Positions 13,676-33,574 of a stretch of DNA of 64,000 nt are shown one piece after another. A model generated the notes under the pieces. That model saw only the letters and a program-made list of their open reading frames with translations, was not told where the DNA came from and searched no databases. How positions within the stretch are numbered: position 1 is the stretch's first letter; each line of letters opens with the position of its first letter. The translations under genes and the position numbers were made by a program. The stretch comes from Deltaproteobacteria bacterium (GTDB taxonomy: Bacteria; Myxococcota; B64-G9): the NCBI GenBank assembly GCA_016935365.1, contig JAFGRB010000033.1, forward strand, positions 1 to 64,000, given 5' to 3'.

Positions 13676-14881
13676 TCACGACGAGCGTTTTCGAACGATC
13701 CGGCTCGACAGCAGGCGATACAGGACCTTGCAGACGTCGAAAGAGCTGCGCCTGCTCGCCCGGACAATGTCCTTGATGGTCCGCTTGCCGTTGACGAGGG
13801 CGAGGACCCTGTCCTCATCCTGATCGAGCTTGATCTGCTTGATGACGCCGGTGGCGTCCTGGCAGCGGGCCAGCACCATGTCGAACTCCCGGATCTCCTT
13901 CTCGATCAACCCCCATTCATCCACACGCCTGAAGCCCTCCATCAGGACTTGATCCACCGACAGCTCGAGCTCGGCCTCTCGGCTCTCGATGGGCAGGTTC
14001 TCGGTGACGTAGAAGGCGAACTCGCCCTCTCCCCATCGAAGCACCTCGTACATCAGCTCTTCGGTCTGCTGGCGCAGGGCCTGCTTGAGATCGTCCTGCG
14101 AGATGTGATTGAGCTTGACGAGCTGCTCGCCGAGCAGCTTGGATGTGCCCCGGCGGCTCTCCAGGAAGACCTCCAGGTCGCGGGCAGAGATGGCGCCGCT
14201 CTCGATCAGAAAGCGCCCCAGCAAGAACTCATCGTCCACGTGGGCGGCCCGGGCGAAGATCACCGCGCCGTCGCGCAGGAAGATCTCGAGATGGGCCTGC
14301 CCTCGAGCGATGTGCAGGATGCCCGTATGGGCCTGAAACTTGAGCAGCTGGAAGATCTCCGCGGCCGGAATCATGCCCAGGTTGCCGCGCAGCGCCACGC
14401 GCCCGCGGGGATCCGATAGGTCTTCCGAGGTGGGGAGATCTTCCGGCTTGCGCTCCCCGACGGGCAGCAGTGGATCGGGGTTCTCCTCGGCACCCGAGTC
14501 GATGTACTTGTCGATGGCATGCTGGATGACGGTGCTCAGCGCCTCGGGCGAGAAGGGCTTGGTGATGAAATCGACGATGCCCATGGTCTTGACGAGCTTC
14601 TCGCCCATCATCTCGCCCTTGGCCGACATCAGCACGATGGGGATCTTGTCGAGATCGTCGCTCTCCCCGAGCGCCTTGCACACCTGGTAGCCGTTCATGC
14701 CGGGCATGAGGAAGTCGAGCAGGACGACGTCCGGCTTGATCTCCCTGACCTTGGCGATGCAGCTCTCGCCATCGTGGATGGAGATCACCTCGAGCCCCAG
14801 CTTGTTCAGCGTGTGGCCGATGACTTTGTGGATGGTCGGGCTGTCGTCGATGACCAGCACACGCCGTGCGGTCATGTGCAC
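13676..14881 (-). CDS. Response regulator with C-terminal DUF4388 (PatA-type) region
   Basis: Intact receiver RRVLVIDDSPTIHKV..DVVLLDFLMPGMNGYQV..IVLMSAKG..DFITKPF; DUF4388-like RGNLGMIPAAEIFQLLKFQAHTGILHIARGQAHLEIFLRDGAVIFA. Confidence 0.85.
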   Translation of the reverse strand: MHMTARRVLVIDDSPTIHKVIGHTLNKLGLEVISIHDGESCIAKVREIKPDVVLLDFLMPGMNGYQVCKALGESDDLDKIPIVLMSAKGEMMGEKLVKTMGIVDFITKPFSPEALSTVIQHAIDKYIDSGAEENPDPLLPVGERKPEDLPTSEDLSDPRGRVALRGNLGMIPAAEIFQLLKFQAHTGILHIARGQAHLEIFLRDGAVIFARAAHVDDEFLLGRFLIESGAISARDLEVFLESRRGTSKLLGEQLVKLNHISQDDLKQALRQQTEELMYEVLRWGEGEFAFYVTENLPIESREAELELSVDQVLMEGFRRVDEWGLIEKEIREFDMVLARCQDATGVIKQIKLDQDEDRVLALVNGKRTIKDIVRASRRSSFDVCKVLYRLLSSRIVRKRSS

Positions 14882-14899
14882 CTCGGTCCCGGTATCGGG

Positions 14900-15709
14900 T
14901 CAGAAAGATCGCACCTTGAGCTCGAGATCATGGGACACGGTCAGCACGCTGCTGTCTGCGACCTCGCGCCACTGGTGGCCTGGATCGCTCATGTCCGCGC
15001 CCAGCATGATGCCCTTGAACCTCAGATGGGCTTCCTTGCTCTCCTCGTCGCAGTCGACGTGCTTGCAGCTCTGGATGCCTTCCCGATGCGAGTAATGCAT
15101 GGGGATCCCACGGCAGACCGCGGCCATGACCTGGCCGTTGGTGGCCAGCATGGCGAAGGTCGACTCCTTCTTGTCCGCTCTATGCTCATCCGCGAACGCG
15201 ACGAGCTTCAGCAAGTAGTCGGCCAGGCTGCCGGCCGGCAGCTCGAGATCGTTGAGCTTGCCATCCTTGAACAGCTCGTCGAGCAGCCTGTGGAAGGCGA
15301 GCTCGCTCTCGGTTTCGCCACGGACGTTACGGGCCAGGAAAGGCGGCAGCGCGCGGAGGATCTCTTCGCGGTGCTCGTCGAGCCCGGAGAGCGTCCCCAC
15401 GTGGGCGAAGAGCCAGCGGCGGAAGCGGAAGGGATGGGTGTTGGCGTCCTTCCAGGCGCCCACGGTGCCGCGCCGGACGTGAACCAGCAGCACGTTGGAG
15501 CGGATCCCCTCGACCAGCTCGCGAAAGTCGATCTGGGAGAGGAGATCCGAGGGGCGTTTTCTCAGCAGCGGGTCGTCGCCGCTGTAATAGCCGACGCCCA
15601 CTCCGTCGTGGCGATCGTCCCGGGCCAGGCGCAAGGACTCGTTGACGTCCTGTATGGCGCACTCCAAAAGGTCCTCGTCGTTGCACATCAGGCCCAGCAT
15701 CCGGCACAT
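14900..15709 (-). CDS. Class II glutamine amidotransferase
   Basis: MCRMLGLMCN with catalytic Cys2; HDGVGVGYY; NVLLVHVRRGTVG; NTHPFRFRRWLFAHVGTL. Confidence 0.8.
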   Translation of the reverse strand: MCRMLGLMCNDEDLLECAIQDVNESLRLARDDRHDGVGVGYYSGDDPLLRKRPSDLLSQIDFRELVEGIRSNVLLVHVRRGTVGAWKDANTHPFRFRRWLFAHVGTLSGLDEHREEILRALPPFLARNVRGETESELAFHRLLDELFKDGKLNDLELPAGSLADYLLKLVAFADEHRADKKESTFAMLATNGQVMAAVCRGIPMHYSHREGIQSCKHVDCDEESKEAHLRFKGIMLGADMSDPGHQWREVADSSVLTVSHDLELKVRSF

Positions 15710-15841
15710 GCGAGCCTCCTTGGGAGAAGACGTCCCGGATGACAAACGCTACCGGATCGGGGCTTCGCGATCAAGCAAAACCCCATCGTCGGGAGAGGCG
15801 GGAGCTGCGAGCAGCCGGCTTCGCGCGGGCGGCGCCGAGGT

Positions 15842-19987
<4,146 letters not shown>

Positions 19988-20130
19988 ACCTCACAGAGAA
20001 TGGAGAGATACGGAATACACGGTTATTTCTAGCATTATCCAGACGTGGCTGTCAATTCGAGGCCCTCTGGGCTCGCGGGGCTTGATCTGGCGGATGGGGC
20101 GACCCTAGTATGCAGCCGGAGGAGGCTCGC

Positions 20131-21360
20131 ATGCGTGGAACGATCCTCGTCGCGCTCGTCCTGTGGGCGGTGGTCTCGGCAGTCGGCTGCCAGAAGGAGC
20201 CGGAGCTGGACGGCCGCAAGGTTACCGAGTGGATCTCCCTGCTCAGGCACCAGGACTGGGACATGCAGGAGAAGGCCGCGGACGCCCTGGTGCGCCTGGG
20301 GCCCGATGCCTTGCCCTATCTCAAGCGCACCCTGAAGACGGCCGGCCCGACCACCCGCCGCAGCGTGGTGGTCACGCTGGGCAAGATGGGGCCGGCTGCC
20401 AAGAGCGCGGTGCCCAACCTGCTCTCCCGGCTGGCCCGGGAGAAGGTGCCCATCATCCGGGTGGAGATCATCAAGGCGCTGGCCGCGATCGACCCGCGCG
20501 GCGCCGAGGTGGTGGCCGCGTTCGAGAAGCGCAAGCAGCGCGATGTGGAAGCGGACGTTCGGGCTGCGGCCGCCAGGGCCCTGGAGAGCCGCGAGGCGCC
20601 CCGGGCTCCGGCCGACAAGCCCGGCCCGGCGGCGCCCGGCGAGGCGCAGCCCGAGCGCTTCGAGCTCCGGGAGGCCGTGGCGGGCGTGGTCGGCAAGAAG
20701 GCGCCTGGCGTCAGCTTCGGGCTCATCGCCGAGGTGATCCGCGAGAAGCGCCGCGCAGCCCTGGTCTGGCCGGGTCTCAAGGCCGGTGAGATCCTCGACG
20801 ACGACGTGGTGGCCATGGTCTTCGAGCGCCGGCAGGACGGCTGGAAGATGCTGGCCGAGCACGGGCCCCTGCGGGGCGCGGACGCGGCCGGCAAGCTGGC
20901 CGAGGCGCTGGGCGGCGCGGACAAGCAGCGCGTCGTGCGCCCGTGCGGCGTGGCGCAGAACGAGCTGGCCGCCCACCTGGCGCGCTGGGGCGCGAGCTTC
21001 GCCCAGGCCCGCAAGGACAAGCAGGACGCTCGGGCCATGGAGGCCTACGAGCAGCTCAGCCGCGTCTTCGGGTACTCCCTGGTGGCGTTCGACGACGCGC
21101 TGGTCGAGATGCTGGCCCACGGGGCTTTCGACCGGCCGTGGCGGATCGACTGCGGGCAGGGGACGGACTGCCGGGCCGAGATCCAGGGCCCGGAAGGCGA
21201 GGCTGCCAAGCGGATCGCGATCCGGTTGCGGCCCTGCGGACAGGGTATGGTGATCGGCTCGCTGTCCCAGCAGCGCGCCGAGCCGGCCGCGGATGGGGGG
21301 CCGGCAGGGACCGAGAAGCCGGGCGCGGCCCGGGCATCGGACGGCGGTCAGGGGGGCTGA
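20131..21360 (+). CDS. Lipoprotein with HEAT-like repeats
   Basis: MRGTILVALVLWAVVSAVGCQKEPELDGRKVTEWISLLRHQDWDMQEKAADALVRLGPDALPYLKRTLK; track start 20110, 20131 fits the signal peptide. Confidence 0.75.
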   Translation: MRGTILVALVLWAVVSAVGCQKEPELDGRKVTEWISLLRHQDWDMQEKAADALVRLGPDALPYLKRTLKTAGPTTRRSVVVTLGKMGPAAKSAVPNLLSRLAREKVPIIRVEIIKALAAIDPRGAEVVAAFEKRKQRDVEADVRAAAARALESREAPRAPADKPGPAAPGEAQPERFELREAVAGVVGKKAPGVSFGLIAEVIREKRRAALVWPGLKAGEILDDDVVAMVFERRQDGWKMLAEHGPLRGADAAGKLAEALGGADKQRVVRPCGVAQNELAAHLARWGASFAQARKDKQDARAMEAYEQLSRVFGYSLVAFDDALVEMLAHGAFDRPWRIDCGQGTDCRAEIQGPEGEAAKRIAIRLRPCGQGMVIGSLSQQRAEPAADGGPAGTEKPGAARASDGGQGG

Positions 21361-21733
21361 GCGCCAGCTTGAGCAGGCGCACGCCCTCGTGCCACCAGTC
21401 GATCCGGTCCTCCAGCAGCGCACACAGCGAGAGCGCATCTCCGGCCAGCAGCAGGGCTGCGCGCCGGTGAGGCCACAGGCGGACCGCGCTGCGGGCCGAG
21501 CGCAGCACCTCGTCCGGGGCCAGCGAGCCGGGCCAGCCCAGCTGCACCCGGAGAAGCAGCAGGTGCAGCACGGCGCGGTCCGGCCGTAGCTGACTCGCCC
21601 GGCGGAGCCTCGCGAGCTCGGTGGCCGGCGGCGGCGGCGGATCGCACAAGATCTGCGCCCAGCGAGCGCGCGCCCTGGGCGGAAGCCGATCGAGCAGCCA
21701 GCGGTCGCGGTATCCGAAAGAGCGGCAGAGCAT
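21348..21733 (-). CDS. Hypothetical helical (TPR-like) protein, C-terminal boundary uncertain
   Basis: MLCRSFGYRDRWLLDRLPPRARARWAQILCDP..RAVLHLLLLRVQLGWPGSLAPDEVLRSARSAVRLWPHRRAALLLAGDAL; frame stays open to 21056, antisense to the HEAT lipoprotein. Confidence 0.4.
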
Positions 21734-21801
21734 GATCCCAGCCTAGCAGGCAGCCCTGACATGCGGCCGGCCGGCACGCGCCGGCACGCCGGCATGCGGA
21801 T

Positions 21802-21829
21802 TTGCGCTTCGCGACCGGGGTGATAGAAT
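21802..21829 (+). promoter_or_regulatory. Candidate sigma70-type promoter (TTGCGC-N16-TAGAAT with extended -10 TGA)
   Basis: ttgcgc at 21802 and tgatagaat ending 21829, 11 bp before ATG 21841. Confidence 0.4.
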
Positions 21830-21840
21830 CGAGCCCGGAC

Positions 21841-22959
21841 ATGCGCTGGTCCCGGAGGAGCTTCATCCAGAGCGCGCTCTCGGCAGCCGCCTTGGCGCTC
21901 TGGCCCCGAGGGCTTCGCGCCCAGCCGGCCGGCCGGTCGCGCGTGGTCGTGGTGCGCGACGGGCGGGCCTGGACGGGCCGGGGCTGGACGGACACCGATC
22001 TGGACGCCGGGCGGGTGGAGGCGATGATCGCCCGGGCGCTCCGCGAGCTGGTCGGGCTCGACGACGAGATCGAGGCGCTGCGGATCCTGCTGCCCGATCT
22101 GGTCGATGCGCGGGTGGCGATCAAGGTCAACTGCGTCAACCGCGCCCTGCCCACCCATCCCCGCTTCACGGACGCCCTGGCCGCGCTCATCACCCGGGCC
22201 GGCGCGCAGGCCTCGCAGCTCCTCGTCTACGACCGCAGCGATCACGAGCTCGCGCGTTGCGGCTACGCCCTCGGCCAGGGGGAGCGGATGCGGGTCGTGG
22301 GCTGCGATCACGCGGGCTATGGCTACGAGCAGGAGATCGCGCTCGGCGAGGCGGCGCTCCGGCTGGGGCGCATCGCGACCGAGGCGGATCACCTGCTGAG
22401 CGCCCCGGTGCTCAAGCAGCACGAGATGGCCGGCGTGACCCTGTCGCTCAAGAACCACTTCGGCTCCATCGATCACCCCGAGCTGCTGCACGGCCGGGAC
22501 CGGCAGTGCTCGCCGGGGATCGCGGAGCTCAACGCCTGCGAGGCGCTGCGCTCCAGGAGCCGTCTGGCCCTCGTCGACGCCCTGTTCGGCTCCTTCGCCT
22601 CGGGCCTGGCCGGAGAGCCGGACTTCGCGCCCATGGCCGTGATCGCCTCTGTGGACCCGGTGGCCGCGGACGCGGTCGGCCAGGCGCTGATCAACGCGCG
22701 CAGAGAAGAGCAGGGCCTGGGCCCCGTGGACGCCGTGCACCTGCGCGATGCCCAGGCGGCCGGGCTCGGTTGCTGCGATCTGGAGCGCATCGAGCGGATC
22801 GAGATCGAGCTCGCGCCCGTGGAGGAGCAGCGCGGTGAGACGGGCTGCGGGCCGACCGGCCGGCCGGGCGCTGCCGGGCTCGTCGCCCTGCTCGCTCCGG
22901 CCGCGCTCCGGGCGCGCAGATCGAGAAAATCCTTTGGAATCCGAAGCCGGTTGGAATAG
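21841..22959 (+). CDS. DUF362-type protein with Tat signal
   Basis: MRWSRRSFIQSALSAAALAL twin-arginine motif; VAIKVNCVN..PTHPRFTDAL, HEMAGVTLSLKNHFGSI, DPVAADAVG. Confidence 0.75.
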   Translation: MRWSRRSFIQSALSAAALALWPRGLRAQPAGRSRVVVVRDGRAWTGRGWTDTDLDAGRVEAMIARALRELVGLDDEIEALRILLPDLVDARVAIKVNCVNRALPTHPRFTDALAALITRAGAQASQLLVYDRSDHELARCGYALGQGERMRVVGCDHAGYGYEQEIALGEAALRLGRIATEADHLLSAPVLKQHEMAGVTLSLKNHFGSIDHPELLHGRDRQCSPGIAELNACEALRSRSRLALVDALFGSFASGLAGEPDFAPMAVIASVDPVAADAVGQALINARREEQGLGPVDAVHLRDAQAAGLGCCDLERIERIEIELAPVEEQRGETGCGPTGRPGAAGLVALLAPAALRARRSRKSFGIRSRLE

Positions 22960-22995
22960 ACTGCCCAGCCGATTGTCCGATTCTGGAGACGGGTC

Positions 22996-25419
22996 TTGCC
23001 CAAGGGAAAGGACACACCCTTCGGTCGAGTCACGGTCGAGAAGGATCGCTTCGTCGTCCAGACCCAGTTCGCGACGCCTCCGGCCTTCGTCGAGGGCTAC
23101 CGGACCGCGGTCGACGACAAGGGCATCCTCCTGCCGGACACGGGCGAGGTGGCGCCCGGGGCCCAGCTGGTCCTGGACATGCGCATCGCCGGGGGCCAGA
23201 GCGTCTTTCTGGCCACGGGCGAGGTCCGCAGCCCGCCCGATCTCCCCCCGCAGACCATCTACCTCCAGTTCAAGTCCATGGACGCCGCGAGCCAGCAGCT
23301 CCACAAGCAGATCCTGCTCGCCAGGGCCCAGGCGGCGAAGCCCAAGGCGCGGCCGGCGCCGGCTGCGGCTTCAGGCGCGCCAGCGGCCGCCGGCGGAACG
23401 GCCGAGAAGGCGAGCAGCGTCGGCCGGATGAAGCCGGGTGCTGCCGGGGCGCGCTCGACGGGCGACTCGGCCACCTCCCACCACGCCGTGATGTCCGAGC
23501 GGGCGCAGCGCGCCCTGAGCGACAGGCGCTACCTCGGGGCGCTGGCCGAGAGCATCAAGCGGATGGTGCTGGTCGAGGAGAGCGGCGGGGCCACGCCAGC
23601 CGGGCCGCTGCCCTCCCAGGTCGAGGGGCCGATCGTGGGCATCGACCTGGGCACGACCAACTCCTGCTGCGCCATGGTCAAGGAGGGCAGCCAGAACCCC
23701 TTCGTCATCCCCTCCCGCCGCGGGCACAACACCATCCCGTCGGTGGTGGCCCTCGATCCGATGGGCGAGGTGCTGGTGGGCAGCGCGGCCAAGGCCCAGA
23801 TGGAGATCAACCCGGCGCGGACCATCTACGGGAGCAAGCGCCTGGTGGGCAGACCCTTCGACTCGCCGGTCGTCAGCCAGGTGCGCGATCGCTTCCACTA
23901 CGAGATCGTGGCGGGCGCGAGCGGGGAGGCGGCGGTCCGGATCGACAAGCGCCTGCTGAGCCTGGAGGAGGTGGCTTCCTACATCCTGATGGACATCCGC
24001 AACACGGCCCAGGAGTACCTCGGCAAGCTCGTCGAGCGGGCGGTCATCACCGTGCCGGCCTACTACAACGAGAACCAGCGCAGCGCCGTGCGCAAGGCGG
24101 GCGAGCTGGCCGGCCTGTGGGTGGAGCGGATCGTCAACGAGCCCACCGCCGCGGCCCTGTCCTACGGCTACAAGCGCAAGGCCGATAGCCAGCGCTTGCT
24201 GGTCTACGATCTCGGCGGGGGGACCTTCGACGCCTCGGTGCTCGATCTCCACGGCGAGGTCTACGAGGTCCTGTCGACGGGCGGCGATACCTTCCTGGGC
24301 GGCGTCGACTTCGACACCCAGCTCATGGATCACGTGCTGATCGAGTTCCAGCTCGACCTCGGCCGGCTGCCCGAGATGGAGCGGGTCGCCTTCCTGCGGG
24401 TGCTCCAGGCGGCCGAGTTCGCCAAGCGCACGCTCAGCAGCAAGAACGAGGTGGAGATCCGCCTGCCCTTCATCGGGCGGGTCGACGGCAGCCCGGTCAA
24501 CCTCGAGGTGAAGGTCACCCGCCAGACGATGGAGGAGCTCGTCCGCCCGCTGGTCCAACGCACCCTGGACGTCTGCGATGCGGTGCTCGCGGAGCGGAGC
24601 ATGAAGCCGGCCGACATCGACGACATCCTGCTGGTGGGCGGCCAGACGCGCATGCCGCTCGTGCGGCAGATGATCCAGGAGCACTTCGGCAAGGAGCCGC
24701 TCAAGGGCGTGCACCCGGACGAGTCGGTGGCCACGGGCGCGGCCTTGCTGGCCAAGTCGGTCGACGAGCCGGGCAATCTGAAGCTGGTCGACGTGCTGCC
24801 GATCTCGATCGGGGTGGGCGTGCCCGGCGGGACGCTCAGGCGGCTCATCTCGGCCGGGACCACCCTGCCGGCCTCGCGGACGTACGGCTTCTATACGTAC
24901 TTCAACGGCCAGACCGAGATGTACCTGCCCGTCTACCAGGGCGACTCCACCCAGGTGGATCAGAACGAGTCGCTCGGCGTGGTCGAGCTGGAGGGCATCC
25001 CTCCCGGTCCGGCCGGATCGAAGATGATCGAGATCACCCTCAGCCTCAACGCCGAGGGCCTGCTGGCGGTGGCGGCCAAGGAGCGCGGGGGGGCGCAGCT
25101 GGCGGATGTCTCCCTGCGCACCTACGCGCGGATTCCAGGCGCCGCTGCGGCGGCCTCGCAGGCCGCCGCCCAGCCCGCCCCGCAAGCCGCGCCCCGGCCC
25201 GCGGCGCAGCCCGCGGCGCAGGCTGCGGCACCGTCGGCGTTCTCCGCGGCGCCGGCGGCCGCGGGCGACGACACGCTACCGCGCCAGACGGCCACCTTGC
25301 CCCAGACCGTCCGGCGAAGGCGGCAGCCAGCCGCGCCGGGGCCGCGCGCCGCGCGCCGGCAGGAGTCGCCGCGGAGGGGATTATGGGCCTTCCTGAAGAG
25401 GCTCTTCGGCCGCAGATGA
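22996..25419 (+). CDS. Hsp70/DnaK-family protein with N-terminal PilZ-like domain and basic C-terminal tail
   Basis: TTG start; DnaK motifs IVGIDLGTTNSCCAMV, NEPTAAALSYGYKR, LVYDLGGGTFDASVLDL, LLVGGQTRMPLVRQM; tail ..RGLWAFLKRLFGRR. Confidence 0.88.
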   Translation: MPKGKDTPFGRVTVEKDRFVVQTQFATPPAFVEGYRTAVDDKGILLPDTGEVAPGAQLVLDMRIAGGQSVFLATGEVRSPPDLPPQTIYLQFKSMDAASQQLHKQILLARAQAAKPKARPAPAAASGAPAAAGGTAEKASSVGRMKPGAAGARSTGDSATSHHAVMSERAQRALSDRRYLGALAESIKRMVLVEESGGATPAGPLPSQVEGPIVGIDLGTTNSCCAMVKEGSQNPFVIPSRRGHNTIPSVVALDPMGEVLVGSAAKAQMEINPARTIYGSKRLVGRPFDSPVVSQVRDRFHYEIVAGASGEAAVRIDKRLLSLEEVASYILMDIRNTAQEYLGKLVERAVITVPAYYNENQRSAVRKAGELAGLWVERIVNEPTAAALSYGYKRKADSQRLLVYDLGGGTFDASVLDLHGEVYEVLSTGGDTFLGGVDFDTQLMDHVLIEFQLDLGRLPEMERVAFLRVLQAAEFAKRTLSSKNEVEIRLPFIGRVDGSPVNLEVKVTRQTMEELVRPLVQRTLDVCDAVLAERSMKPADIDDILLVGGQTRMPLVRQMIQEHFGKEPLKGVHPDESVATGAALLAKSVDEPGNLKLVDVLPISIGVGVPGGTLRRLISAGTTLPASRTYGFYTYFNGQTEMYLPVYQGDSTQVDQNESLGVVELEGIPPGPAGSKMIEITLSLNAEGLLAVAAKERGGAQLADVSLRTYARIPGAAAAASQAAAQPAPQAAPRPAAQPAAQAAAPSAFSAAPAAAGDDTLPRQTATLPQTVRRRRQPAAPGPRAARRQESPRRGLWAFLKRLFGRR

Positions 25420-26728: not shown

Positions 26729-28144
26729 CTACCGGTAGTCCTCCTTGCTCAACCCGTAGCGCTTCATCTTGTCATACAGCGCCCGCGGCGTGATGCCCGC
26801 CCGGTCGGCGGTCCGCCCGACCCGCCCGTCGCAGCGGCGCAGCAGCTCCTCCAGATAGGCCTTCTCGAAGCGCTCGAGCACGAGCTGCCTGGCCTCCTGC
26901 AGGGGCAGGTCCAGCCAGGCGGAGGCCTGCTCCCGCGGGCCGGGCGCCTCGAGGGCGGCCAGCCGGGCGGCGTCCACCCCGGAGATGGATCGCGGCAGGT
27001 CGTGCAGCTCGATCCGATCGCCCTGGCACAGCAGCATGGCCCGCTCCATCACGTTGATCAGCTCCCGCACGTTGCCGGGCCAGCTGTATCCCCGGAGCGC
27101 CTCGAGCGCCTCGGGCCGGATGGACGTGACCTCGCGGCCGATGCGCGGGCGGAGGTAGTCGATGTAGCTCTTGACCAGCTCGGGGATGTCCTCGCGGCGC
27201 TCCCGCAGCGGCGGGATGGTCAGGGCGACGACGCTGAGGCGGTAGTAGAGGTCGCGGCGGAAGGTCTTGGCCTCCACCATGGTCTCGAGGTCGCGGTTGG
27301 TGGCCGCCATGACCCGGACGTCCACCTGAAAGGAGCGCTCGCCGCCGACGCGCTGGATGGTGTGGTCCTGCAGGACGCGGAGCAGCAGGACCTGGAGCCG
27401 GTGCGGCATCTCCCCGATCTCGTCGAGGAAGACGCTGCCCCGGTGGGCCAGCTCGAACGAGCCGCGCCGCGATCGGGTGGCGCCGGTGAAGGAGCCCTCC
27501 TCGTGGCCGAAGAGCTCGCTCTCCAGGAGCGACTCGGGCAGGGCCCCGCAGTTGACCGCGATGAAGGGGCCGTCGCTCCGGGGCCCCTCGTTGTGGATGG
27601 CCCGCGCCAGCCGCTCCTTGCCCACGCCCGTCTCGCCCTGGATGAGCAGCGAGGCCCCGCTGCTCACGACCCGGGAGACCATGTCCATGAAGGACTGCAT
27701 GGCCGGGCTCAGGGAGACGAAGTCGTTCAGCCGGGGCCGGGCCAGGGGGTGGCCCATCTCGATCTGCTGCCTGGAGATCTCCCGGCGCTTGTCCAGGATG
27801 GTCTGAAGGACGCTCGCGATCTGGGCGCCGTTCAGGCCGGCGTAGAGCACGGCCTCGCAGCCGGCGGCCAGCAGCTCGGCCCGCTCGGCCGGGTCGTCGT
27901 GCTCGCTGAGCAGCACCAGGCTGGGCGCGTCCGGGATCTGCTGGAAGGTCTCGATCATGGCCTCCTTGCCCTGGAGGAGCCGGCGGTCGAGCACCGCCAG
28001 ATCGCAGATCTCCCTGGCCGCGCGCGTGAGCAGATCGCCCGAGGGCTCGGCCAGGCTCACGATCACATCCGGGCGGTCCAGGGCTCTCTTGATCCGCGCC
28101 TGGAGGGTCTTGCGCCTCAGGGCCAGCAGGACTCGAAAGATCAT
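26729..28144 (-). CDS. Sigma54-dependent transcriptional activator (NtrC-like) with degenerate receiver
   Basis: AAA+ motifs GETGVGKERLARAIH, ELFGHEEGSFTGA, FLDEIGEMP, RVMAATNRDLE; Fis-type HTH RVGRTADRAGITPRALYDKMKRYGLS. Confidence 0.9.
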   Translation of the reverse strand: MIFRVLLALRRKTLQARIKRALDRPDVIVSLAEPSGDLLTRAAREICDLAVLDRRLLQGKEAMIETFQQIPDAPSLVLLSEHDDPAERAELLAAGCEAVLYAGLNGAQIASVLQTILDKRREISRQQIEMGHPLARPRLNDFVSLSPAMQSFMDMVSRVVSSGASLLIQGETGVGKERLARAIHNEGPRSDGPFIAVNCGALPESLLESELFGHEEGSFTGATRSRRGSFELAHRGSVFLDEIGEMPHRLQVLLLRVLQDHTIQRVGGERSFQVDVRVMAATNRDLETMVEAKTFRRDLYYRLSVVALTIPPLRERREDIPELVKSYIDYLRPRIGREVTSIRPEALEALRGYSWPGNVRELINVMERAMLLCQGDRIELHDLPRSISGVDAARLAALEAPGPREQASAWLDLPLQEARQLVLERFEKAYLEELLRRCDGRVGRTADRAGITPRALYDKMKRYGLSKEDYR

Positions 28145-28325: not shown

Positions 28326-28463
28326 ATGGCAAAGGCGAAGAAGGACAAGAAGAAGAAAGCCAAGGGCAAGAAAGAGGAGGAGAAGAAGGAAGAAGGGGAT
28401 GACGAGGGGAAATCCGAGCAGGTCAGGAAGACAGGTCTACAGAGTTCGCTACCCAAACGCTAG
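28326..28463 (+). CDS. Small Lys/Glu-rich protein (45 aa)
   Basis: MAKAKKDKKKKAKGKKEEEKKEEGDDEGKSEQVRKTGLQSSLPKR; good RBS (ggagg) 5 nt upstream. Confidence 0.55.
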   Translation: MAKAKKDKKKKAKGKKEEEKKEEGDDEGKSEQVRKTGLQSSLPKR

Positions 28464-28475
28464 AGGAGACAAGTC

Positions 28476-28886
28476 ATGAGAGCAAAGAGTCCCTGGATGC
28501 TCGCGGTGCTCGCCCTGGCGAGCCTGGCCCTGTTTGCCGCTCCGGCGGCCGCTGCCAAGAAGGCCAAGAAGAAGGGTCCCCCGATCGTCAAGGTCGAGGG
28601 AGAGGTCGTCAAGCAGGCCAACAAGAAGGGGGCCATCACGGCGGTCCAGATCAAGACCAAGGACGGCAAGATGGTCCACGTGGTGATGGACCGCAAGGGC
28701 AAGAAGCTCGGCAAGGACCTGGCCGGCAAGAGCGCGGAAGTCGAGGGCACGACCTTCAAGAAGAAGTTCCGCAAGGAGATGCGGGAGTGGATCCGGGTGA
28801 AGACCTTCAAGGAGGCCGTGGCTGCGGCCCCGGAGCCGGATTCCGAGCCAGCGACGGAGCCGGCGCCTGAGCCCGAGGGCGAGTAG
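28476..28886 (+). CDS. Secreted small basic protein with acidic/Pro C-terminal tail
   Basis: Signal peptide MRAKSPWMLAVLALASLALFAAPAAAA then KVEGEVVKQANKKGAITAVQIKTKDGKMVHVVMDRKG. Confidence 0.7.
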   Translation: MRAKSPWMLAVLALASLALFAAPAAAAKKAKKKGPPIVKVEGEVVKQANKKGAITAVQIKTKDGKMVHVVMDRKGKKLGKDLAGKSAEVEGTTFKKKFRKEMREWIRVKTFKEAVAAAPEPDSEPATEPAPEPEGE

Positions 28887-28905
28887 TCGGCTTGCGGGGT
28901 GGGCC

Positions 28906-29274
28906 ATGGAGGCCAGAGCAGGAAAGACCGAGTCGATCGTCCTGACCGGCATGGTGGTTCCCGTCGCGTGGGACGACGACGATCAGGTGACGAGCGTGTC
29001 CATTATGGACGAGGAAGGCAACGAGTACATCGTGGAGGAGGGCAAGATGAGCGGAGAGCTTCTCGACCACGTCGACGAGGACGTGGAGGTGAACGGCGAG
29101 GCATGGGAGGACGAGTACGGCGACAAGATGCTTCGCGTGTCGGACTATCGCGTGGTCTCGAGCGATGAGGACGACGAGGACTTAGAGGACGAGGACTTCG
29201 AGGAGGAGGAGTACGAGGAAGAGGAGTACGAGGAAGAGGAGTACGAGGAAGACGAGGACGACGAAGACGAGTAG
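28906..29274 (+). CDS. Small highly acidic protein, homologous-looking to the upstream basic protein
   Basis: IVLTGMVVPVAWDDDDQVTSVSIMDEEGNEYIVEEGKMSG..VEVNGEAWEDEYGDKMLRVSDYRVV then D/E/Y repeat tail. Confidence 0.7.
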   Translation: MEARAGKTESIVLTGMVVPVAWDDDDQVTSVSIMDEEGNEYIVEEGKMSGELLDHVDEDVEVNGEAWEDEYGDKMLRVSDYRVVSSDEDDEDLEDEDFEEEEYEEEEYEEEEYEEDEDDEDE

Positions 29275-30098: not shown

Positions 30099-30503
30099 TC
30101 AGCCTGGAAGCAGCGGGAATCCGAAGCGTTCGAAGCCTTTGTCCACCGCGACGCAGCGAGCCTTCGGATGCTCCTGCAGGCAGGCCACCACGCTGGCGTC
30201 CACGATGGTGAAGCCGCGGGAAGGGCTCTCGGATGCGATCTGCCAGATCCGCGAAAACAGCGTCTCGTCCACCCAGCGCCACTCGACGAGCGGGTAGATC
30301 TTGTGCATGAAGACCTCGGCCGCCTTCGAGCCGTGACGGATCTGGAGCAGCCCGAGCGTCTCTCCCAGCACGAAGGAGGTCGAGAAGAAGCGCTCGCCCT
30401 CTCTGACGAGACCGGAGAGCGCCCCCGCCACCGCCCGGTGATGTCTGTCCGCCGCCACCAGGTAAGCGTAGAAGGCCGAGCTGTCGATCACGCAAGCCAT
30501 CAC
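30099..30503 (-). CDS. PIN-domain (VapC-like) toxin
   Basis: MACVIDSSAFYAYLVAADRHH; FTIVDASVVACLQ; CVAVDKGFERFG. Confidence 0.82.
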   Translation of the reverse strand: MMACVIDSSAFYAYLVAADRHHRAVAGALSGLVREGERFFSTSFVLGETLGLLQIRHGSKAAEVFMHKIYPLVEWRWVDETLFSRIWQIASESPSRGFTIVDASVVACLQEHPKARCVAVDKGFERFGFPLLPG

Positions 30504-30754
30504 GACCCATCGTCGCCGTACAGGTAATCGTCATGCCTCTCGGCCACGTCTCCCTCTCCCTCCGAGCCCTCGATCGCCCCGGCCGCCTCCACGAACGCGC
30601 GCACCTGTTCGTCATCCATCGGCATCGGATCGAGCAGGTGCTCGCGCAGCAGCCAGCGCACCGCAGCCGAGACCGAGATCCCCCGCTGCCTCGCCCAGCG
30701 CTTCAGCGCCTCGTGATCGTCCCGCTCGAGCTGTATCTGAGCCCGCCGCTTCAT
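30500..30754 (-). CDS. Ribbon-helix-helix (CopG-like) antitoxin
   Basis: MKRRAQIQLERDDHEALKRWARQRGISVSAAVRWLLREHL; 4-bp overlap with toxin gene. Confidence 0.82.
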   Translation of the reverse strand: MKRRAQIQLERDDHEALKRWARQRGISVSAAVRWLLREHLLDPMPMDDEQVRAFVEAAGAIEGSEGEGDVAERHDDYLYGDDGS

Positions 30755-32314: not shown

Positions 32315-33574
32315 GTGGCTGTCAAAAAAAAGCCTGCTCGGCACCGCGAAAAGCAGCATCGGAATGCAAAAAGGCCGAACCATGACGAGGTCTTGACGAT
32401 CACGTCCGGGCGCCTGGGGCCGATCGAGTCCCGCGCGGAGATCAGGGTCCGGCCTCTCACGCTGTTCGTTGGACGGCAGGGGACGGGAAAATCGCTTCTC
32501 GCGCAGATGCTGTACTTCTTCCGCGGGCTGCCCAAGCTCGTCGAGCACGACCTGGCCAAGCAGCTCGCGGACGAGCCCGAGGCATTCGAGCCCAAGGTTG
32601 TCATCCGGAGGCTCATCAATGGCCTGCGCAGCAGCGAGCGCAGCTTCGCCAACATGACGCATCCGAAGATGACGGTGACCTGGGAGGGACAGCTCGCCGT
32701 CGGAAGCCTGCACACCCGGAGGAGGAAGCTCGGGTTCAACACCCAGCACGTCACCCGGGCTGTCCAGCCGAGAAACGATCTGAAGAGCGTCGTGTCCGAG
32801 GCCAGCAGGGGGCCGCAGCCGCTGAGCGCGGTCTACATTCCAGCGGAGCGGCTGTTCTACTCGCTTTCTCGGAATCCGACCAGCATCCAGATGATCAGCG
32901 CGCCGATCACGCTCGAGGTCTTCGGATGGTGGATGGAGCGAGCCGCGGCCATACAGTCGGGCTGGCCCGGAGGGCGTCCCGATACCGAGGAGGGACGCAA
33001 GATCCGGGCTCGCATGCGAACCGCTCTCGGTGGAGAGGCTGTCAGGCGAGGGCAGTCCTGGCGATGGAGCTTTGGGGATGGGAAGACGCAGCGCGAGCTG
33101 GATATCGACATGGCGTCGTCCGGACAGAGGGCCAACTGGCCCATGCTCCTGTTGCCCCAGGTGCTGTTCTCGCTCCGGAAGGACCGCGAGCTCGCAGAGC
33201 CTTTCGTCATCTACGTGGAGGAGCCCGAGATCCATCTCCATCCCGAGGCCGAGCGTGCGGTGATCGAGAACCTCGTGTTCCTCGTGAACAAGGGATTCCA
33301 GGTCGTCCTGACGACACACTCGCTCACGACCCTGTACGTGCTCAACAACCTCCTGCTCTCCTCGCGGTTGAAGCCCGGCGTGGGGTCGAAAGGCGTGCCC
33401 GAGCCGAGCTTCAGGATCAGTCCGGAACATCTGGCAGCATACCACTGCGTCGATGGACAAGTGGAGTCGCTGCAGGATGGCGAGACTGGGCTCATAGACG
33501 AGGCAGCGCTCGGACGCGTGTCCGACGACCTCGGAGCCGAGATGAACCAGCTGTATGCATTGCCACGAACATAG
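32315..33574 (+). CDS. ABC-type AAA family ATPase (AAA_15/AAA_21-like, OLD/Rad50-like fold)
   Basis: Walker A LFVGRQGTGKSLLAQML; signature-like SSGQRANWP; Walker B FVIYVEEPEIHLHPEAE; H-loop VVLTTHSLTTLYVLNNLLL. Confidence 0.85.
   Translation: MAVKKKPARHREKQHRNAKRPNHDEVLTITSGRLGPIESRAEIRVRPLTLFVGRQGTGKSLLAQMLYFFRGLPKLVEHDLAKQLADEPEAFEPKVVIRRLINGLRSSERSFANMTHPKMTVTWEGQLAVGSLHTRRRKLGFNTQHVTRAVQPRNDLKSVVSEASRGPQPLSAVYIPAERLFYSLSRNPTSIQMISAPITLEVFGWWMERAAAIQSGWPGGRPDTEEGRKIRARMRTALGGEAVRRGQSWRWSFGDGKTQRELDIDMASSGQRANWPMLLLPQVLFSLRKDRELAEPFVIYVEEPEIHLHPEAERAVIENLVFLVNKGFQVVLTTHSLTTLYVLNNLLLSSRLKPGVGSKGVPEPSFRISPEHLAAYHCVDGQVESLQDGETGLIDEAALGRVSDDLGAEMNQLYALPRT

Follow-up and report, generated by a model that had tools for sequence, protein, structure and literature searches.

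Bacterial periplasmic OB-fold (BOF) proteins such as YgiW/VisP are small exported proteins of the OB type, and exported small proteins resembling the first of the two described below exist in other phyla. Bacterial SSB carries an acidic C-terminal tail. The Pfam family DUF4920 (PF16267) looks like an exported OB-type domain. Here we describe two adjacent small genes, P0001 and P0002, from a Deltaproteobacteria bacterium (GTDB Myxococcota; B64-G9; assembly GCA_016935365.1), and compare their products with DUF4920, with OB-fold SSB proteins and with the anticodon-binding OB domain of LysRS/AspRS. The initial annotation had read their products as duplicated, charge-inverted paralogues that could form an electrostatic complex or function in different compartments, and literature searches returned nothing specific. 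As a system, the charge-inverted pair does not stand up, and a conserved or interacting P0001/P0002 pair is not supported; the family of P0002, however, looks real and unannotated.

Two adjacent genes of opposite charge

The window, meaning the whole stretch of DNA analyzed, covers positions 1-64,000 of the forward strand of contig JAFGRB010000033.1 and has a GC content of 69%. The features discussed here are:

28476..28886, + strand: P0001, 136 aa, basic small protein, predicted to be exported (ORF and translation)
28476..28556, + strand: predicted signal peptide of P0001, MRAKSPWMLAVLALASLALFAAPAAAA (sequence and hydropathy; cleavage site placed by eye)
28575..28817, + strand: core of P0001, possible OB-like domain with weak DUF4920 similarity (Pfam, hhalign)
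28906..29274, + strand: P0002, 122 aa, acidic, without a signal peptide (ORF and translation)
28930..29163, + strand: core of P0002, predicted OB-fold of order b1-b2-b3-a-b4-b5 (AF2 and Foldseek)
29164..29271, + strand: acidic low-complexity tail of P0002, net charge -31 (charge count, direct repeats)

Both are real genes, with codon-position GC that is gene-like for a window of 69% GC (GC3 of 0.91 for P0001 and 0.85 for P0002). They lie on the same strand, 19 nt apart, and probably form one transcription unit; the single operon of the initial annotation is thus retained as probable, judged from the gap only. Its description of neighbors of opposite charge agrees with the whole proteins, which have isoelectric points of 9.9 (P0001) versus 4.05 (P0002) and net charges of about +12 versus about -49. 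Each protein does end in a low-complexity tail: by residue count, the mature, Lys-rich core of P0001 (about +17) is followed by a short Pro/Glu tail (-7), and the core of P0002 (-18) by a 36-residue acidic tail (-31), in which a direct-repeat search found a 15-nt near-repeat encoding YEEEE units. The N-terminus of P0001 runs from a basic stretch through a hydrophobic one (Kyte-Doolittle peak of 2.5) to an APAAAA-KK end, as is usual in Sec signal peptides, and because of this basic start, hydrophobic stretch and cleavage-like end the protein is probably exported via the Sec pathway. In its hydropathy profile, the start of P0002 has no stretch as hydrophobic as that of P0001, so that the proposed distinction between a secreted and a non-secreted protein agrees with the predictions.

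Several neighboring features were recorded. Divergent from P0001 is a gene for a sigma-54-type activator (26729-28144, - strand) in which GSFTGA replaces GAFTGA; beside the paralogues of this regulator, no similar pair of small genes was seen. A sigma-54-like site between the activator gene and P0001 (28277-28292, + strand; TGGCACGGCGATTGTC, TGGCAC-N5-TTGT) was rejected, as the 21 matches in the window are what chance would give (20 expected). A candidate third charged small ORF (28326-28463, + strand), encoding 45 Lys/Glu-rich residues that begin MAKAKKDKKKKAKGKKEEEKKEEGDDEGKSEQ, lies 12 nt upstream of P0001 and may not be a gene, because its GC3 is only 0.72. On the other side of the two genes, 30099-30754 (- strand) encodes PIN-domain and ribbon-helix-helix proteins with a 4-nt overlap, a probable VapBC-type toxin-antitoxin pair, and 32315-33574 (+ strand) encodes an AAA ATPase that PADLOC matches to models of defence ATPases, AriA and Old among them, a possible defence system that may have a second gene in the 33.5-34.2 kb stretch.

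Predicted fold and relatives of the acidic protein

The AF2 model of P0002, built from an alignment of two sequences, reached a pLDDT of 81.2 and a pTM of 0.67, with two of the five models above pLDDT 70. DSSP reads in it five strands in the order b1-b2-b3-a-b4-b5, which is that of the OB-fold, and the matches listed in a Foldseek search of the PDB are OB-containing proteins (LysRS/AspRS, RPA, Rim1/mtSSB and OBody). The best of these has an E of 5e-3; because none passes 1e-3, the OB-fold is likely rather than proven. A viral structure library returned SSB-like proteins among many uncharacterized ones, and sequence searches of the PDB with the proteins of the pair gave chance matches only. On this model, P0002 is probably an OB-fold domain followed by a disordered acidic tail.

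Among described OB proteins, the anticodon-binding domains of LysRS/AspRS are the most frequent Foldseek matches, but identity is about 8-18%, E is at least 5e-3, and P0002 is without the synthetase catalytic domain. The model also matches Rim1, mtSSB and RPA chains in strand order, and the acidic C-terminal tail recalls that of bacterial SSB. However, the core of P0002 is itself strongly acidic (-18), unlike a DNA-binding OB domain, its tail is a long polyacidic stretch, and Pfam gives no SSB match. An acidic core with a predicted OB-fold and an acidic tail would suit an inhibitor of some DNA- or RNA-binding protein that acts by mimicking nucleic acid. This we consider improbable, as P0002 matches no known defence family and no plasmid protein, its matches among phage proteins being at chance level.

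An orthologue of P0002 is found in a second genus of the family (genome G001; Myxococcota MAG contig JAKLGA010000018.1), with a core E of 2.6e-7 and 36% identity, and this record was the only match in a scan of genome contigs. By charge count it too has an acidic core (-11) and an acidic tail (-26) of different sequence; since the tail is acidic though differently worded, acidic character is kept as a property. The orthologue converges on an Hsp70 gene at a distance of 19 nt, and beyond this are genes for HEAT-repeat, class II amidotransferase-like and response-regulator proteins, whose counterparts in the window lie at 13676-25419. The shared neighborhood and the orthologue together therefore mark P0002 as a genuine, diverged, syntenic gene. 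Before its Hsp70 domain, the Hsp70 protein of the window (22996-25419, + strand) carries about 200 additional N-terminal residues; its best matches, at 60-68% identity, come from six other genomes of the family, and one of these adjoins the P0002 orthologue. Beside the orthologous Hsp70 genes of five other family genomes, no small OB-like gene was found with a profile.

P0001 went undetected in searches of the G001 genome, and P0002 can therefore exist without it; as far as the searches reach, the two are not a conserved unit. Among about 197 genomes of the phylum there was no convincing match to either protein other than the P0002 orthologue in G001, so that the pair is known from one genome only. 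The initial annotation had named absence of the pair from relatives as a reason to give the idea up, and in G001 the orthologue of P0002 indeed occurs with no detectable P0001. The same observation weighs against a further reading, in which P0002 would serve export as an anionic chaperone in the cytoplasm, shielding the very basic precursor of P0001 until it is secreted; despite the adjoining genes, the 19-nt gap and the opposite charges, we regard such a role as very improbable.

The basic protein and the relation between the two cores

The core of P0001 comes nearest to DUF4920, although the Pfam match (E 0.0088, 16.5 bits) does not reach the gathering cut-off of 25; hhalign against DUF4920 relatives from the same family of bacteria gave an E of 1e-3 over 54 columns. 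The core fits the motif 'V.VeGkV ... dGk ... GkxAxaEGk', and both P0001 and DUF4920 proteins look exported. In an alignment of these relatives, C38, H40, W44, F45 and G46 are invariant, but P0001 is Lys-rich and has no Cys, and these C/H/WFG invariants are not aligned with it. A DUF4920-like lipoprotein, also below the cut-off, is encoded elsewhere in the same genome (G000:C23:12826-13032, L029), and relatives above the cut-off occur in four genomes of the family. As a proposed small exported protein of the OB type, P0001 would resemble BOF proteins; Pfam gives it no BOF match. Its AF2 model, from a single sequence, is poor (pLDDT 62.5) and has a long helix at the C-terminus where the last strands would be expected, and its structure matches are not meaningful. 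From its sequence pattern, the core may adopt an OB-fold. A search of its own genome found no convincing second copy of P0001, none of the roughly 197 genomes of the phylum had a convincing homologue, and the plasmid and phage protein sets gave no match. P0001 can thus be called an orphan within this phylum only.

Whether the two cores are related, as the initial annotation held, received mixed answers. Pairwise BLASTP of P0001 against P0002 gave E = 0.004, and shuffling placed the local score at P = 0.007 with a gap opening of 11 and at 0.0003 with a gap opening of 7. When 751 segments taken from the window's other genes were scored instead, seven to nine equalled or beat the pair at gap opening 11 and none did at 7. 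The alignment runs in register across the whole core, with K/R opposite D/E at 11 positions (permutation P of 0.018 on an optimized alignment); because the alignment itself was optimized, such permutation values lean towards a relationship. The hydrophobic pattern is alike in both cores and fits an OB-type barrel, with a reasonably confident prediction for P0002 only. Against this, comparing the acidic profile and P0001 by hhalign gave P = 0.39 and 0.35 with profiles holding two sequences, and when six-frame ORFs were searched with the acidic-family HMM, likewise a profile of two sequences, P0001 came only in 8th place, at E 21. The lack of an hhalign relationship between the cores was the other outcome that the initial annotation had named as counting against its idea. 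Because these profiles hold two sequences, their negatives have little power and cannot exclude distant kinship. The sub-threshold DUF4920 match outscores P0002 as a match for P0001. Shared ancestry of the two cores is thus weakly supported: the pairwise similarity stands, the profile comparisons show no relationship at the power that two sequences per profile allow, and the duplication that would make them paralogues is not established.

Two readings draw on this similarity. Tandem-duplicated, charge-inverted paralogues joined in an electrostatic complex would account for a score above that of shuffled sequences, an in-register core alignment with 11 K/R-D/E positions, and adjacent genes. We judge such a pair decidedly improbable, however, given the negative profile comparisons, the occurrence of P0002 without P0001 in G001, predicted compartments that differ, and a P0001 that is closer to DUF4920 than to its neighbor. 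Alternatively, the two could be genuine OB-fold paralogues of ancient origin that, once duplicated, diverged, went to different compartments and form no complex. The same pairwise evidence (BLASTP, shuffles and the 751 segments) is compatible with this, as are the predicted OB-fold of P0002 and the OB-compatible sequence pattern of P0001 near DUF4920; yet homology is not demonstrable with profiles, the fold of P0001 is not confidently predicted, and OB-folds look alike without close kinship. We consider ancient paralogy rather unlikely.

Proposed separate functions for the two proteins

Charge, fold and location suggest what each protein may do, and the reading we prefer, which we hold tentatively and at somewhat less than an even chance, is that the two act separately, P0002 as a cytoplasmic acidic OB binder of cationic partners and P0001 as an exported binder of envelope polyanions. 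P0002 would present in the cytoplasm the acidic surface of an OB-fold domain with a disordered polyacidic tail, and would most likely bind positively charged partners, such as basic proteins or cationic protein surfaces, in the manner of a nucleic-acid mimic or an anionic chaperone. To go by its net charge only (-18 in the core), P0002 itself would not bind nucleic acid. P0001 would leave the cytoplasm through Sec, after which its Lys-rich core would most likely bind anionic envelope material such as lipopolysaccharide or other polyanions.

A complex between the two is unlikely, because the inner membrane separates a Sec-exported protein from a cytoplasmic one; any electrostatic association would need to form before P0001 is exported. 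That P0002 exists for such a complex is likewise disfavored, because it occurs without P0001. The electrostatic complex of the initial annotation is thereby left improbable, and the data agree best with its alternative, in which each protein works in a compartment of its own, with a signal peptide on P0001 only. A more elaborate scheme, in which P0002 would be a cytoplasmic anionic OB-fold protein dedicated to chaperoning basic exported proteins, its local client being P0001, and in which a single OB domain would have given rise to both through duplication and inversion of charge, seems to us highly unlikely.

Had duplication with opposite charge been shown, the locus would offer a tidy example of duplicates whose charge has been inverted, a conclusion for which the present evidence is insufficient. 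Should P0002 prove to be a strongly acidic OB barrel whose polyacidic tail is conserved, it would exemplify, in an uncharacterized family of Myxococcota, an OB-fold turned from nucleic acid to cationic partners.
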